A stretch of DNA of 64,000 nucleotides from Candidatus Nanosyncoccus alces (GTDB lineage: Bacteria > Patescibacteriota > Saccharimonadia > Saccharimonadales > Saccharimonadaceae), in NCBI RefSeq assembly GCF_004138395.1, contig NZ_PRLM01000001.1, forward strand, positions 62,001 through 126,000. The letters run 5' to 3'. Position numbers and translations under genes: made by a program. The notes under the pieces were generated by a model that was given only the letters and a program-made list of their open reading frames with translations, was not told the origin of the DNA and searched no databases. Numbering within the stretch: position 1 is the first letter of the stretch; the number at the start of each line of letters is the position of its first letter. Shown here piece by piece: positions 38,588 to 49,752 of the stretch.

Positions 38588-38616
38588 TTGTAAAAGAGGT
38601 AAAAGTGTGATATACT
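38588..38616 (+). promoter_or_regulatory. Promoter of the uL3 ribosomal operon
   Basis: TTGTAA, 17-base spacer ending TGA, TATACT. Expected start near 38623. Confidence 0.75.
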
Positions 38617-38622
38617 GAGGTA

Positions 38623-38775
38623 GTTATCTAGACATAAGGTGAGGTCTTATGCTGCAACAGCAGAGGAAACCGGCCTAAAAGTCTAGTTATTTACATGTAA
38701 AAATATTAAAAAATTGCGAGAAGAGTTTTGCCTGGTGTACAGAGGCAAAACGGCAATATAAAGGAAAGGAAAAGG
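38623..38775 (+). promoter_or_regulatory. Structured leader of the ribosomal operon
   Basis: A closed three-way junction: CTAGAC (38628-38633) pairs with GTCTAG (38681-38686) and encloses CATAAG/CTTATG and GCTG-CAA-CAGC hairpins plus the unpaired AGAGGAAACCGGCC. A second long hairpin, GTTTTGCCT/AGGCAAAAC, is at 38725-38751, extended by TTGC/GCAA. Leaders of S10-type operons often bind a ribosomal protein (uL4 in E. coli) for feedback; that role here is inference. Confidence 0.65.
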
Positions 38776-39396
38776 ATGCAAGTCATTCTCGGCACCAAAA
38801 TTGGTATGACCCAGATTATCGGCGAAGATGGTGTGGTTACCCCGGTAACTATCCTACAAGCCGGTCCGTGCGCAGTGACTCAGATAAAGACCGTTCAAAC
38901 TGACGGTTATAATGCTGTGCAAGTGGGCTATGGTCAGGGTAAGAATCTGAGCAAGTCGGTTACTGGCCATGTAAAAAAGGCTGGTGAAAATATTAATCCA
39001 AAAGTCTTGAAGGAGTTTCGCGTAGACGAGCTTCCGGAAGGTGTGAAACTTGGTGATGCTCTTACCGTAGAAAGTTTCAAGTTGGGTGATAAGGTTGCAG
39101 TGACTGGCACTAGTAAAGGCAAAGGCTACGCTGGTACAGTAAAGCGCTGGAACTTTAATGAATCCCGTAATACTCACGGATTCAAAGGAAATATTCGTCG
39201 GGTTGGTTCAATTGGTTCGATGTACCCGCAAAAAGTTTTCAAGGGTAAGAAAATGCCGGGTCGTATGGGGCACGATCAAGTAACGGTAAAGAACTTGGTA
39301 GTGGCTTATATTGACGTGGAAAATAACTTGATTGGCTTGAAGGGTGCAGTGCCAGGCCCGAAGAAGGGGATCGTAAGCGTGGAGGGAAAGGAGTAA
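38776..39396 (+). CDS. rplC: Ribosomal protein uL3
   Basis: 206 residues from the ATG at 38776 (site AAGGAAAGG), giving MQVILGTKIGMTQII. Conserved GTSKGKGYAGTVKRWNF and MPGRMGHDQVTVKNL present. First gene of the cluster: rpsJ (uS10), normally directly upstream, is not here. Confidence 0.97.
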   Translation: MQVILGTKIGMTQIIGEDGVVTPVTILQAGPCAVTQIKTVQTDGYNAVQVGYGQGKNLSKSVTGHVKKAGENINPKVLKEFRVDELPEGVKLGDALTVESFKLGDKVAVTGTSKGKGYAGTVKRWNFNESRNTHGFKGNIRRVGSIGSMYPQKVFKGKKMPGRMGHDQVTVKNLVVAYIDVENNLIGLKGAVPGPKKGIVSVEGKE

Positions 39397-44945: not shown

Positions 44946-45347
44946 ATGTCATTACAATCTACAGATCAAATCGCCGACCTTATTACTCGTATTCGTAATG
45001 CTGTGATGGTAGGCAAGAATGAAATTCTCGTCCCTACTTCCAAACTTAAAGTACAGGTAATTGAGGTTTTGGCTAAAAATGGTTATATTACGGGCTTTGA
45101 AGTGATTGAAGGCAAGCCACGTGGCGTGCTGAAGGTCACGATTAACGAGCCTGGTATGATAGCTAAAATCAATGAGATTTCAAAGGTATCTAAACCTGGA
45201 CGTCGAGTATATTCGGCTGCTGAAGATTTGCCGGTAGTGAAGTCTGGCCGAGGTATGGTTATTGTTTCTACCTCTAAGGGGTTAATGACCGGTCGTGAAG
45301 CAAAGAAAAACCATTTGGGTGGCGAAATTCTAATAAGGGTTTGGTAG
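44946..45347 (+). CDS. rpsH: Ribosomal protein uS8
   Basis: 133 residues. [18 protein letters not shown] start and [28 protein letters not shown] end are typical (the start of the last motif reads [10 protein letters not shown]). Last gene before the surface-protein insertion. Confidence 0.97.
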   Translation: [133 protein letters not shown]

Positions 45348-45489: not shown

Positions 45490-45518
45490 TTGATTTTTGG
45501 GGTTAGGTGCGGTATATT
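45490..45518 (+). promoter_or_regulatory. Promoter of surface-protein gene
   Basis: TTGATT, 17-base spacer, TATATT, giving a leader of about 70 bases. A TTGACA at 45421 lacks a well-spaced -10 partner. Confidence 0.65.
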
Positions 45519-45597
45519 GAGACTAGAAAAGGAGTGTGTGTTTGACGTTTGGTGGGCCAAGCGCATTTTTAATTTAAAACCATCAGGAGGAGAGAGT

Positions 45598-48500
45598 ATG
45601 GTTAGAAAACAAATATTAAAGCGGGTCAGTTATTTTGGCGTGGCCTTAATGTTGATGCTGGCGAGTGTGCCAATATTGCCTAGTGGTAGTGCATGGGCGG
45701 ATGGTGGATTGTCGACCTGCATTGGTGGCCCCTGGAACAATTTGAATAACAAACTTTCTAGTACTGCCGATGAACTTGAGATTACACTTTGTGCTGGTGA
45801 AGATTATTCAGAGTATGATCATGGGCTATCCGCTCCCAACATTAAGAATTTAGTTCTAGACTTAAATGGCAATGCCATTAGAATAACTGGTACTAATGTA
45901 AAACCCGGCAATAGTTTGACTATTAAGAACGGGACGATTTTGGGTAAGAATGGCAATCCGTTATTTAGCAACAGTGGTACTTTGACTTTTCAAAATGTTA
46001 CTTATAGTGCTAATGATTTGAGATTTGTCCGTAATAACGCTGGTGGTGTATTGAGAATTGTAAGCGGTAATTATTCTGGTGCAACCACACTTTTCTATGG
46101 CGATGGCGCAGCTAATATTAGTGGTGGGACTTTCGACCGTGACGTAAACTCTGGCGTGGCTAGTGGCTACGCGGCTTATAAGAGTGGCAACGCATGGGTA
46201 GTAGAAACTAAATTAACCAACGAGAATATCACCGCTCCAGATACTATCGTATTGAAAGAAGGCGAGGTATTTGACGTAGCAAGTATAATTGGGCTGCCGG
46301 CGGGTTCTACCACGGGACTTAGCTATTATTCGCGCAATAATGATGTGGCAAACATTAATTACCGTGGCATAAATAGCGAAGGCTCTAACGGCTTGCTCGG
46401 CGTAAGTGCGGGTACTACTAGTATTGCGGTGAGACCACTATATGATACAAGCTTGATTAAAAATATTAATGTAGTGGTAGAGTCTGGCTTGGTGGGGATT
46501 AATGTCGATGATTTGAATATGTCGCAAGAAGATTCGGTGAGAACGAGGATCTCTAATATTTATGCAGAAAGAGCAAATCCTGACTACGTGACTGGAGTAA
46601 CTTACGTAGTAGATAGAAACAATTTGCCGAGTGGTCTAGCTGCGCGTATCAGTACGGCTGGAGACGAATTGGTGGTGACGACTGGTATTGATGCCAAAAT
46701 TGAGCCTGGCACATATACCGTAAGGATTAAAGCTCTGAGAGACGGCGTGGATACAGGTATCTACAGGGATGTTACTGTAAATGTGGGCAATATTTTCACT
46801 AACTTCTCATTAAACCAACAATTGGCAAGTGAAAACACGATTGAACTGAAAGAAAACGAGTCGGTGGAACTGACCGTGAAAAACGCTAGGACGATGAATA
46901 GTGCCGATAATGTTGAGGTGGTGAGTGTAGAGTTGAGGAGTGCTAGCGACGTAATGAGTACCGATGGTGTTAAAACTATTTCTGGTAGTCAGAATGGTAT
47001 CGGTGAAGCAACAATCTACGTTACGGCAGAATACACTAGCAGTAACAATCATAAATATACTTTCACTAAAGGATTTAAGGTGAAGGTGCTTTCGGTTTTG
47101 GAAAGCATTGGCGTGCGGGATATTAATGATGACAACTACAGTGGCGATTTGTATGGTTCAGATGCTGGCGAGACGAGTGAAGTAGAGCTTGATAAATACG
47201 ACGAAAAAAGTTTTAAGATTACCAAGCATTGGTATAATGCGGCGACGGACTATGCAGTGGAAATCGTATCTGGTAATGATGTAGTTGAACTGGACGATAC
47301 CAATATTACAAATGGTCAATTTGGCGTGAGTGGCAAAATGCCTGGCGTGGCAACCGTAAGGGTGAGTGTAACACCTAAGGGTGGTAACGATACTTTGACT
47401 AAAGAGTTTAATATCAAAGTCAATCCTATTTTGGAAGATATTACGATTGCGGTTGAATCTGATGGTAGAGTGATGACGGAAGATTACGAGATTGATAATG
47501 GCGATTTTGGGAGAATTATTGCAACAGCCAATGACAATTTGGATGCTACTGGCGATATCACTTATACTTTTGTGGAAACTGATCGGGTGAAGCGACTAGA
47601 TATAAGAGAGGACGGTAATTTTAGAAGTGGTCTAAATACAAAATCGGAAGCAACTGTAAGGGTTACTGCTAGAGATAGTAAGGGGCGCGAAGTTACTAAA
47701 GACATCAAAATAAAAATCAATCCGGTACTGGTGTCATTAGCTTTGGAAAATGACGATATCACGATCTACGAAGAGGACACGGCACAGATCAAGATTAAGC
47801 AGGTAGTAGCAGATGTGATTAAGTCGAAAGTAGCTTGGAGTTACGAGAATTATGACGGCAGTATCATTAGCGTGTCTGAAACTGGTGAAGTGACTGGCCT
47901 GAAAGATGGCACGACCGTGGTAAAAGTGGTAGGAACTTTTGTGTCGCCACTAGGCAAGACCTATACTGCTTCTAAAGAAGCTAGGATTACGGTAAAGCCG
48001 TTATTGAAACAGGTGAGTATCAAGAGCAAGAACGGTAGATATTTATTAAGTGGCACGACACAGACTTTGTATGAGCTAGATAATGCTACTTATAGGATTT
48101 CACATAAGAATAAGAACGCACCAGTAACATACACGGCGATTTCGGCGGATGAAGATGTGGCGACGGTGGTAGTAAATGGTAGTGAGCTTGAAGTGATAAC
48201 TTATGAAAAAGTTGGTAGTACTTTGATTACGGTGATCGCTGAAGATAACGAAACTGGCAAGAAAGTTTCCACTACCATGACGATAAAGGTAAAGCCGACC
48301 TTGAAGAACGTGAGTGCGGACGATGTGTATATGGTGGTTGGTGAGAAAGAAGCCTTGAACGTTTCGTGGGAAAATCCTGATGTGACGCCGTCTTTGCAAT
48401 ATCACTCTGGCGATAGGACGATTGCAAGAGTGAGCCCTAGGGGCAATGTGACTGGTATGAAGGCCGGTGAAACGACGGCAACGGTGAGAGCGTATTACGA

Positions 48501-49752
48501 CAGTAAGGTTGCGGAAGCGACTGCAGGAGTACATGTATACGAAATGGTGAAACCGGTACGTCATCACTATTATGGCGCTGTGGGGCAGGTGTTTAATGTG
48601 CACGTAGGAGACAAGAATACGAACGCTTATACTAGGGCGAGAGTAAACGCTCCTTGGGGAATGTTTGTAATGGGCGATGCTGTTATGGCGCTTTTGCCTG
48701 GTGTATATACGGTAATTTATACGGACTACATGGCAAATGGCGAGGTTGTGGGTGAGTATGCGGCGGAATTTACAATATTTAACGTAGAGCGTGAAACTGT
48801 AGTGGTAGCACGTGGTGATACGGTGGAGTTGGAACCGCATAGTGAGTGGAATACTACCTCTGCCAAGGATGAAACTACCGGACATCATGTGCGTGTTAAT
48901 AGGGATGGTAAAGTAGTGTTTAAAGCTGATGAGGCAACCGCACTCGGTGTGCACGATATAACAATGAAGCATATGTTTAGATATGACGTCCGTGAGGTAG
49001 TAAAGGAAGTGAGGGTAGTGGTATATGATGTAGTGGCAGATTTAGAGACAGACCCAGACGGTGTAACGGCAGATACCCTTAAGGAGTATATTGAAGGAAT
49101 GTTTGTACAACCTACTTCTTGGGAAGAGTTTGTGGAAAGAATGCAACAGACGCGGGGGTTGTTTGGTGATGGGTTTGAGTATTTCTGGTCGACTATGGGC
49201 GTGAGTAGTGCAGTGTTTAATGGTGACGAAATCAACACACGCGTAGAGGTTACTGAGCTTGAGGAAGAGGAGGTGGAAGTTGAGTTGATTGATGCGATTG
49301 GTGATTTGGACGTAAAAGGAGTAAAATATTTTGATGTGTCAGTATGGATGTCTAAGAATGGTTACGATTTTGGTAAAATACATCAGTTGAATGGAAAAAT
49401 TACCGTGGCATTAACCGAAGTGGCCGATCCAGAGACTGGCTATATTCGTCAATATATTGTAGTGCGTGAACACGACGGCGAGATTGAAATGCTAGAGGAA
49501 GGCGTGGATTTCTATATTGAAGATGGTGTGCTGTATATAATTTCGGATAAGTTCTCGACTTACGCGGTGGCTTATCAAGACACTTTGATTCCGGCTTACG
49601 GTGGGGTGGCTTATACTGTGAGCGCGCCGGATACTGGTGTAAACACGAAGGTGGACGGTGGTGCTACCAGTACCAATATGGTTGTAGCTGTGTTAGCCGC
49701 ATTGACTGCGACAGCCTTGGCTGGCGTGGCGATGTTCGCGAAGCGTAGATAG
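45598..49752 (+). CDS. Giant cell-surface protein, beta-helix plus Ig-like repeats
   Basis: 1384 residues from the ATG at 45598 (site CAGGAGGAG). Signal peptide, cleaved after SAWA (residue 34). Residues about 80-200 form a right-handed beta-helix-like segment (LVLDLNGNAIRITG, GNSLTIKNGTILG). The middle is a series of bacterial Ig-like (Big_2-type) repeats, for example SIISVSETGEVTGLKDGTTVVKV. The C-terminus has APDTG at 1343-1347, then a hydrophobic helix (1361-1381) and KRR, resembling an LPxTG sorting signal with a longer linker. It interrupts the ribosomal cluster as an independent unit. Likely adhesin or surface layer; inference. Confidence 0.88.
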   Translation: MVRKQILKRVSYFGVALMLMLASVPILPSGSAWADGGLSTCIGGPWNNLNNKLSSTADELEITLCAGEDYSEYDHGLSAPNIKNLVLDLNGNAIRITGTNVKPGNSLTIKNGTILGKNGNPLFSNSGTLTFQNVTYSANDLRFVRNNAGGVLRIVSGNYSGATTLFYGDGAANISGGTFDRDVNSGVASGYAAYKSGNAWVVETKLTNENITAPDTIVLKEGEVFDVASIIGLPAGSTTGLSYYSRNNDVANINYRGINSEGSNGLLGVSAGTTSIAVRPLYDTSLIKNINVVVESGLVGINVDDLNMSQEDSVRTRISNIYAERANPDYVTGVTYVVDRNNLPSGLAARISTAGDELVVTTGIDAKIEPGTYTVRIKALRDGVDTGIYRDVTVNVGNIFTNFSLNQQLASENTIELKENESVELTVKNARTMNSADNVEVVSVELRSASDVMSTDGVKTISGSQNGIGEATIYVTAEYTSSNNHKYTFTKGFKVKVLSVLESIGVRDINDDNYSGDLYGSDAGETSEVELDKYDEKSFKITKHWYNAATDYAVEIVSGNDVVELDDTNITNGQFGVSGKMPGVATVRVSVTPKGGNDTLTKEFNIKVNPILEDITIAVESDGRVMTEDYEIDNGDFGRIIATANDNLDATGDITYTFVETDRVKRLDIREDGNFRSGLNTKSEATVRVTARDSKGREVTKDIKIKINPVLVSLALENDDITIYEEDTAQIKIKQVVADVIKSKVAWSYENYDGSIISVSETGEVTGLKDGTTVVKVVGTFVSPLGKTYTASKEARITVKPLLKQVSIKSKNGRYLLSGTTQTLYELDNATYRISHKNKNAPVTYTAISADEDVATVVVNGSELEVITYEKVGSTLITVIAEDNETGKKVSTTMTIKVKPTLKNVSADDVYMVVGEKEALNVSWENPDVTPSLQYHSGDRTIARVSPRGNVTGMKAGETTATVRAYYDSKVAEATAGVHVYEMVKPVRHHYYGAVGQVFNVHVGDKNTNAYTRARVNAPWGMFVMGDAVMALLPGVYTVIYTDYMANGEVVGEYAAEFTIFNVERETVVVARGDTVELEPHSEWNTTSAKDETTGHHVRVNRDGKVVFKADEATALGVHDITMKHMFRYDVREVVKEVRVVVYDVVADLETDPDGVTADTLKEYIEGMFVQPTSWEEFVERMQQTRGLFGDGFEYFWSTMGVSSAVFNGDEINTRVEVTELEEEEVEVELIDAIGDLDVKGVKYFDVSVWMSKNGYDFGKIHQLNGKITVALTEVADPETGYIRQYIVVREHDGEIEMLEEGVDFYIEDGVLYIISDKFSTYAVAYQDTLIPAYGGVAYTVSAPDTGVNTKVDGGATSTNMVVAVLAALTATALAGVAMFAKRR

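Follow-up and report, generated by a model that had tools for sequence, protein, structure and literature searches.

The whole stretch of DNA analysed here, 64,000 nucleotides referred to as the window, comes from a 727 kb Saccharibacteria genome (Candidatus Nanosyncoccus alces) and holds a group of ribosomal-protein genes beginning with rplC. The region leading into rplC, positions 38623-38775, follows a gene on the opposite strand, and the transcript presumably starts near 38623. By eye, many relatives carry a similar -10 box immediately before the outermost helix (P1), and the transcript of many members of the genus probably begins just there. The features considered here are given below; matches refer to two calibrated covariance-type searches, a genus model (which includes the window sequence) and a cross-genus model built mostly from other genera.

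38588-38616, + strand: putative promoter (TTGTAA, 17 nt, TATACT, with TG before the -10 box); three promoter-like sites against 1.3 expected, weak when taken alone
38626-38696, + strand: leader hairpin and start of its tail, as matched by the cross-genus model (13.5 bits, E 2.8); genus model, 74.5 bits
38628-38633, + strand: P1, 5' strand, CUAGAC
38637-38639, + strand: P2a, 5' strand, AGG, pairing with CCT at 38674-38676
38642-38646, + strand: 5' side of the core, A followed by GGU and C; GGT at 38643-38645 pairs with ACC at 38669-38671
38646-38666, + strand: variable hairpin P2b
38666-38671, + strand: 3' side of the core, G, AA bulge, ACC
38674-38676, + strand: P2a, 3' strand, CCU
38681-38686, + strand: P1, 3' strand, GUCUAG, followed by UUAUUU in the window and by UUUU in most relatives
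38725-38751, + strand: second hairpin, found at the level of the genus; loop UGGUGUACAGA at 38733-38743, the two end bases of which can pair
38760-38775, + strand: purine-rich stretch with the likely Shine-Dalgarno sequence (AAAGGAAAGGAAAAGG)
38776-39396, + strand: rplC (uL3), Pfam PF00297
39398-39997, + strand: rplD (uL4), Pfam PF00573
39999-41236, + strand: rplW (uL23) and rplB (uL2), Pfam PF00276, PF03947 and PF00181

Farther down the same cluster lies a gene which, by position and sequence, we take to be rpsH (44946-45347); its product, uS8, is also a known leader ligand. Directly after it, an open reading frame of 1420 residues (45490-49752) appears to be repetitive; at its end stand APDTG, a hydrophobic stretch and KRR. 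It seems to resemble a sortase-anchored surface protein and to break the ribosomal gene cluster.

A single irregular hairpin upstream of rplC

The region upstream of rplC folds more stably than its shuffled versions (-45.8 kcal/mol, where shuffles average -36.4; z -2.69; 1 of 200 shuffles as stable). Together with the covariation described below, this supports the view of an earlier note on this DNA that a structured ribosomal-operon leader is present. The note had further proposed that CTAGAC and GTCTAG close a three-way junction, and both strands do lie at 38628-38633 and 38681-38686. The junction itself is rejected, since covariation and fold energy both speak against it. Among 39 relatives of the genus the proportion of paired cells is 50.5% and 51.1% in its two inner hairpins (78.6% for a single tip pair of the second), as opposed to 100% for P1, and on the window sequence the junction reaches -10.6 kcal/mol, the conserved single hairpin -18.4 and the minimum-energy fold -20.9.

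The leader is thus a single irregular hairpin, real and conserved, with no three-way junction. From its base upwards it consists of P1 (CTAGAC/GTCTAG), an internal loop, P2a (AGG/CCT), a bulged A, the pairs GGU/ACC, a 3'-side AA bulge and the variable hairpin P2b, whose length and sequence vary freely among relatives. Order-wide, the core helix takes the form RGU/ACY, sometimes RG/CY, with a bulge of two bases, A[A/U], on the 3' strand. The whole element measures about 60-75 nt, and its near-invariant core, A-RGUC ... G-A-A/U-ACY, comprises only about a dozen nucleotides. A short ATG...TAA frame running through P2b in the window was considered as a leader peptide and discarded, as by eye neither frame nor start is kept in relatives.

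Conservation and distribution of the leader

Loci of rplC were collected from 80 public contigs and from 35 of the 40 genomes searched (the window's own and relatives). A simple anchor search recovered the same block in 88 of 99 distinct upstream regions; of the 11 regions not recovered, two are truncated, one escaped the pattern and eight belong to other families, in which P1 has a different sequence. The compensatory changes by which the proposed leader could be judged are found in these relatives, and at the level of the order they occur in every helix. In this regard, 94.8% of the pair cells are paired in a genus alignment of 39 sequences (87.8% when shuffled, at most 41.4% when slid), with two-sided changes in 8 of 17 pairs and 67 such cells against 23.6 in shuffles; these sequences were hand-picked from 83 distinct ones for alignability and diversity, a choice that favours structure. 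The measure of further pair types was not distinctive in this alignment, being reached by 49 of 500 shuffles. A second alignment, whose 34 sequences come for the most part from other genera and families, has 90.1% of its cells paired (76.2% shuffled, at most 53.6% slid) and two-sided changes in 13 of 19 pairs (86 such cells against 27.0); here too the selection, 34 of 51 candidates, favours structure, and four genus rows out of register at P1 were scored as unpaired. A third alignment of 81 rows, fitted to the model, gives 89.3% against 74.3% when shuffled; the window locus appears in it twice, one row (L180) is on the wrong strand and two rows are partial, a composition that likewise favours structure. 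The letters of P1 differ by group: CTAGAC/GTCTAG in the genus, CTTGGTG/CACCAAG in most others and CCTGAGAA/TTCTCAGG elsewhere. When RNAalifold was applied to an unpruned MAFFT alignment of 77 genus sequences, P1 alone was predicted, because MAFFT had shifted the minority forms.

In one clade (10 of the 77 sequences: L022, L028, L032, L048, L049, L052, L067, L074, L075 and L076), ACACTC in the P2b loop could pair with GAGTGT in the tail behind P1 and so form a pseudoknot. Both strands are invariant within the clade, with no variation among the 10 sequences.

The positions of whole-genome matches provide a check that is independent of alignment choices. The genus model matches once in the window's genome and in 36 of the 294 genomes of the order, all of them of the genus (36 of its 43 genomes). 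It finds no match in the seven listed genus genomes that remain, one of which (G165) by eye possesses the block with a long insert (L302). The cross-genus model was trained on 30 of 90 leader sources, its four genus sequences being a minority form, and it matches 80 of those sources at E up to 5 (72 of them at E up to 0.1), leaving 10 without a match. It finds the window leader weakly and at the exact position. Across whole genomes it matches 149 of the 294 in the order, belonging to 95 of 143 genera, and gives no match in 145; in some of the latter the hairpin is present, with P2b enlarged by long inserts or with a different P1 (e.g. L146, L148, L302).

Where rplC coordinates are known, 66 of 67 cross-genus matches lie 13-88 nt upstream of the gene and on its strand; for the remaining one the rplC match is truncated. 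Nearly all positive genomes carry one copy. Two genomes, G156 and G153, carry two matches: in the former an rplC follows each of them, and in the latter the second is followed by a partial rplC where the contig ends. Over 230 genomes of the phylum the same model yields 15 matches, 12 in the order and three outside the class (about 210 genomes). Two of these three, in members of one family of another class (G455 and G498), lie 29 and 85 nt before the start of the rplC match; the third, with no rplC adjoining, is dismissed as chance. A looser scan recovers the core in 8 of 60 further phylum-level regions (0.8 expected from shuffles), and most Patescibacteria sampled outside the class therefore seem to lack the element. 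Taken together, the element is order-wide, with scattered members outside, and the earlier description of the leader as lineage-specific proves too narrow for a hairpin that extends through the order to a family of another class.

The leader had also been linked to a missing rpsJ, which was thought to make rplC the first gene of the operon. The gene is in fact present on another contig of the same genome (L001). An rpsJ end lies within 210 nt of rplC in 6 of 80 upstream regions, and in five of these relatives the hairpin sits between the two genes; the place of the leader is therefore not owed to the loss of rpsJ.

A second hairpin in the genus

The second perfect 9-bp hairpin that had been noticed ahead of rplC is borne out (GTTTTGCCT/AGGCAAAAC at 38725-38733/38743-38751). 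It is an element in its own right at the level of the genus, its stem covarying and its loop nearly constant, and is present in 49 of 91 genus loci, with two copies in eight of these. Its stem is paired in 96.5% of 400 cells, with 54 cells showing two-sided changes against 17.1, while the number of pairs with a change on both sides is not distinctive (reached by 197 of 500 shuffles). The loop reads UGNUGUACAGA in 51 of 57 copies, a constancy to be read with the search pattern in mind, which allowed some variation at 6 of 11 positions only. Upstream of rplC the loop is absent from 80 regions of other genera and from 60 of the wider phylum. Its exact pattern occurs once in the window's genome, and three more places (two coding, one intergenic) match with up to two mismatches. 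The second hairpin may represent a candidate second binding site.

Several further features were observed in this interval. In the window's subclade a short TTGC/GCAA helix encloses the second hairpin (38714-38756), and GTTATTTACATGTAAAAATATT, between P1 and the second hairpin, is nearly identical in about 15 loci. In some members of the genus (L004, L017, L019, L025, L041 and L079) extra hairpins lie between leader and rplC and show different recurring loops, such as CCTGTTATAGGCAGG, and stems closed on TGTGGAG. At another locus (L115, 1501-1515), an intergenic hairpin GACAC...GTGTC surrounds GGATGTACAGAGG, near to the loop of the second hairpin; this could be chance. In other genera (e.g. 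L175, L190, L191) a palindrome, TTATTACGTAATAA, lies between promoter and leader and may be an operator or a 5' end hairpin, and TTACGTAATAA is found in 22 of 80 upstream regions.

A candidate ribosomal-protein leader

By analogy with known ribosomal-protein leaders (r-leaders), the element is likely to give feedback by a protein of the rplC-rplD-rplW-rplB operon. The anatomy of such leaders is present: a probable 5' location, one gene context, a small invariant core within a helix, and covarying stems that maintain a conserved secondary structure, with ribosomal-protein genes downstream of 66 of the 67 placed matches. The hairpin, probably in the 5' untranslated region, would be bound by an operon-encoded protein once that protein exceeds free rRNA, and binding would lower expression of the operon. 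The element is well supported as a structured cis element and moderately as a protein-feedback site, and weakly as to which protein is involved.

A structure without ligand, setting basal expression as a 5' end hairpin that protects the mRNA or tunes ribosome access, would agree with a transcript that probably starts just before P1 in many members of the genus and with the free change of the P1 and P2b sequences. Such a hairpin, however, would have no need of the near-invariant core with its two-base bulge, kept across the order and in another class, and we consider this explanation improbable.

The sequence following P1 bears on a further alternative, a transcription attenuator with no dedicated ligand, in which hairpin and U-run would cause pausing or premature termination. 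Of 81 matches, 67 carry UUUU no more than 8 nt beyond P1, compared with 36 of 1782 control windows; as the model itself included the tail, this count is biased upwards. In the sequence of the E. coli S10 leader we likewise read a hairpin, bulged on its 3' side, directly ahead of AUUUU. Against attenuation stand the shortness of the run (only 4-6 U), the internal loops in the stem, an empty terminator scan of the window and the loss of the U-run in the window's subclade; two of the 14 rows with no UUUU represent the window locus. As the sole function of the hairpin, this is still less probable than a basal-expression role. A small-molecule riboswitch on the ribosomal operon, e.g. a sensor of a growth signal, would fit the compact conserved internal loop and bulge, single copy and promoter-proximal position, but it is the least credible explanation given a conserved core of only about a dozen nucleotides, a single gene context and no match to an Rfam family.

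Returning to protein feedback, control in most relatives would act at the ribosome-binding site, by pausing or termination at the U-run after P1, or by both. For genera of the same family, about 23 nt separate the end of the hairpin from the ATG, and GGGAG lies within this interval. Within the genus the distance from P1 to the ATG ranges from about 30 to 190 nt, and since this spacing is variable and the window has no U-run, one fixed mechanism does not suit all members. The window's subclade no longer has the U-run and carries a second hairpin ahead of the Shine-Dalgarno sequence, so that translational control would be more likely there.

The ligand is presumably a protein of the operon itself. 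In the text of Eckert and Weinberg (PMC7247131), the best guess for a ligand is a protein already known to bind leaders. Elsewhere, uL4 is described as binding the E. coli S10 leader and affecting both transcription and translation (PMC10931766). This rule and the control of the E. coli S10 operon by uL4 are why we favour uL4, encoded by rplD within the candidate operon (PF00573, 39398-39997), as a plausible if still tentative ligand. By comparison, uL3 would be an unlikely choice, and another protein of the operon slightly more so.

A mimic of rRNA, common in r-leaders and not required, was sought in 23S rRNA. With filters off, the cross-genus model reached at best 13.3 bits (E 1.7), the level of chance, on 13 Patescibacteria 23S loci, and a looser core scan of the 12 orientable loci revealed no site common to all. 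Mimicry of helix 63, an idea prompted by an E. coli stretch, was abandoned, as that region, which a pattern search located in all 9 loci of the order and in 2 of the 4 others, is unlike the leader. The window's own genome (G000) has no 23S rRNA match in its assembly although it is rated 98% complete; the gene is probably missing from the bin.

Like the window leader, the uL4-bound E. coli S10 leader heads an operon with rplC-rplD-rplW-rplB. It precedes rpsJ, however, whereas the Saccharibacteria leader precedes rplC even where rpsJ lies upstream, and at about 170 nt with several hairpins it is unlike the single irregular hairpin described here. Neither the cross-genus model nor the core scan finds a match in it. 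Since both an rRNA counterpart and a match to this leader are lacking, the choice of ligand follows precedent alone.

Among the predicted leaders treated in the text and Table 1 of Eckert and Weinberg (2020; PMC7247131), the L4 r-leader of Archaeoglobi also precedes rplC, rplD, rplW and rplB; it is archaeal, rated borderline by its authors and compared here by gene context alone. The S10 r-leader of Firmicutes, compared by operon name alone, is likewise predicted to lead the S10 operon, and the L2 r-leader of Alphaproteobacteria, compared by position alone, belongs to the same gene cluster but stands before rplB rather than rplC. The main text of that survey names neither Saccharibacteria nor Patescibacteria. 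A literature search over titles and the beginnings of abstracts yielded no publication dealing with ribosomal leaders in Saccharibacteria or elsewhere in the Patescibacteria, and nothing on the regulation of ribosomal-protein synthesis in Patescibacteria. In Rfam 15, the window leader and 15 relatives gave nothing at the gathering score on the leader (two sub-threshold matches fall outside the hairpin), and up to E 5 the window leader had no match save one due to chance. The leader is thus apparently an undescribed r-leader candidate.

A bolder reading would join these elements. The leader would be the first r-leader of the candidate phyla radiation, its ligand a protein never shown to bind leaders, such as uL3, and the genus would have switched its mode of control, the attenuator losing its U-run and gaining one or two hairpins with the UGNUGUACAGA loop as a second binding site near the ribosome-binding site. 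As a whole we regard this scenario as doubtful.

The findings presented here add a conserved RNA family that is absent from Rfam 15. The small size of the leader (about 60-75 nt) and its clear core make ligand and mechanism testable in vitro. An r-leader kept across the order and in another class would offer a direct, testable handle on ribosomal-protein regulation in Patescibacteria, and a fresh case in which different RNA structures have apparently evolved to control the same operon.
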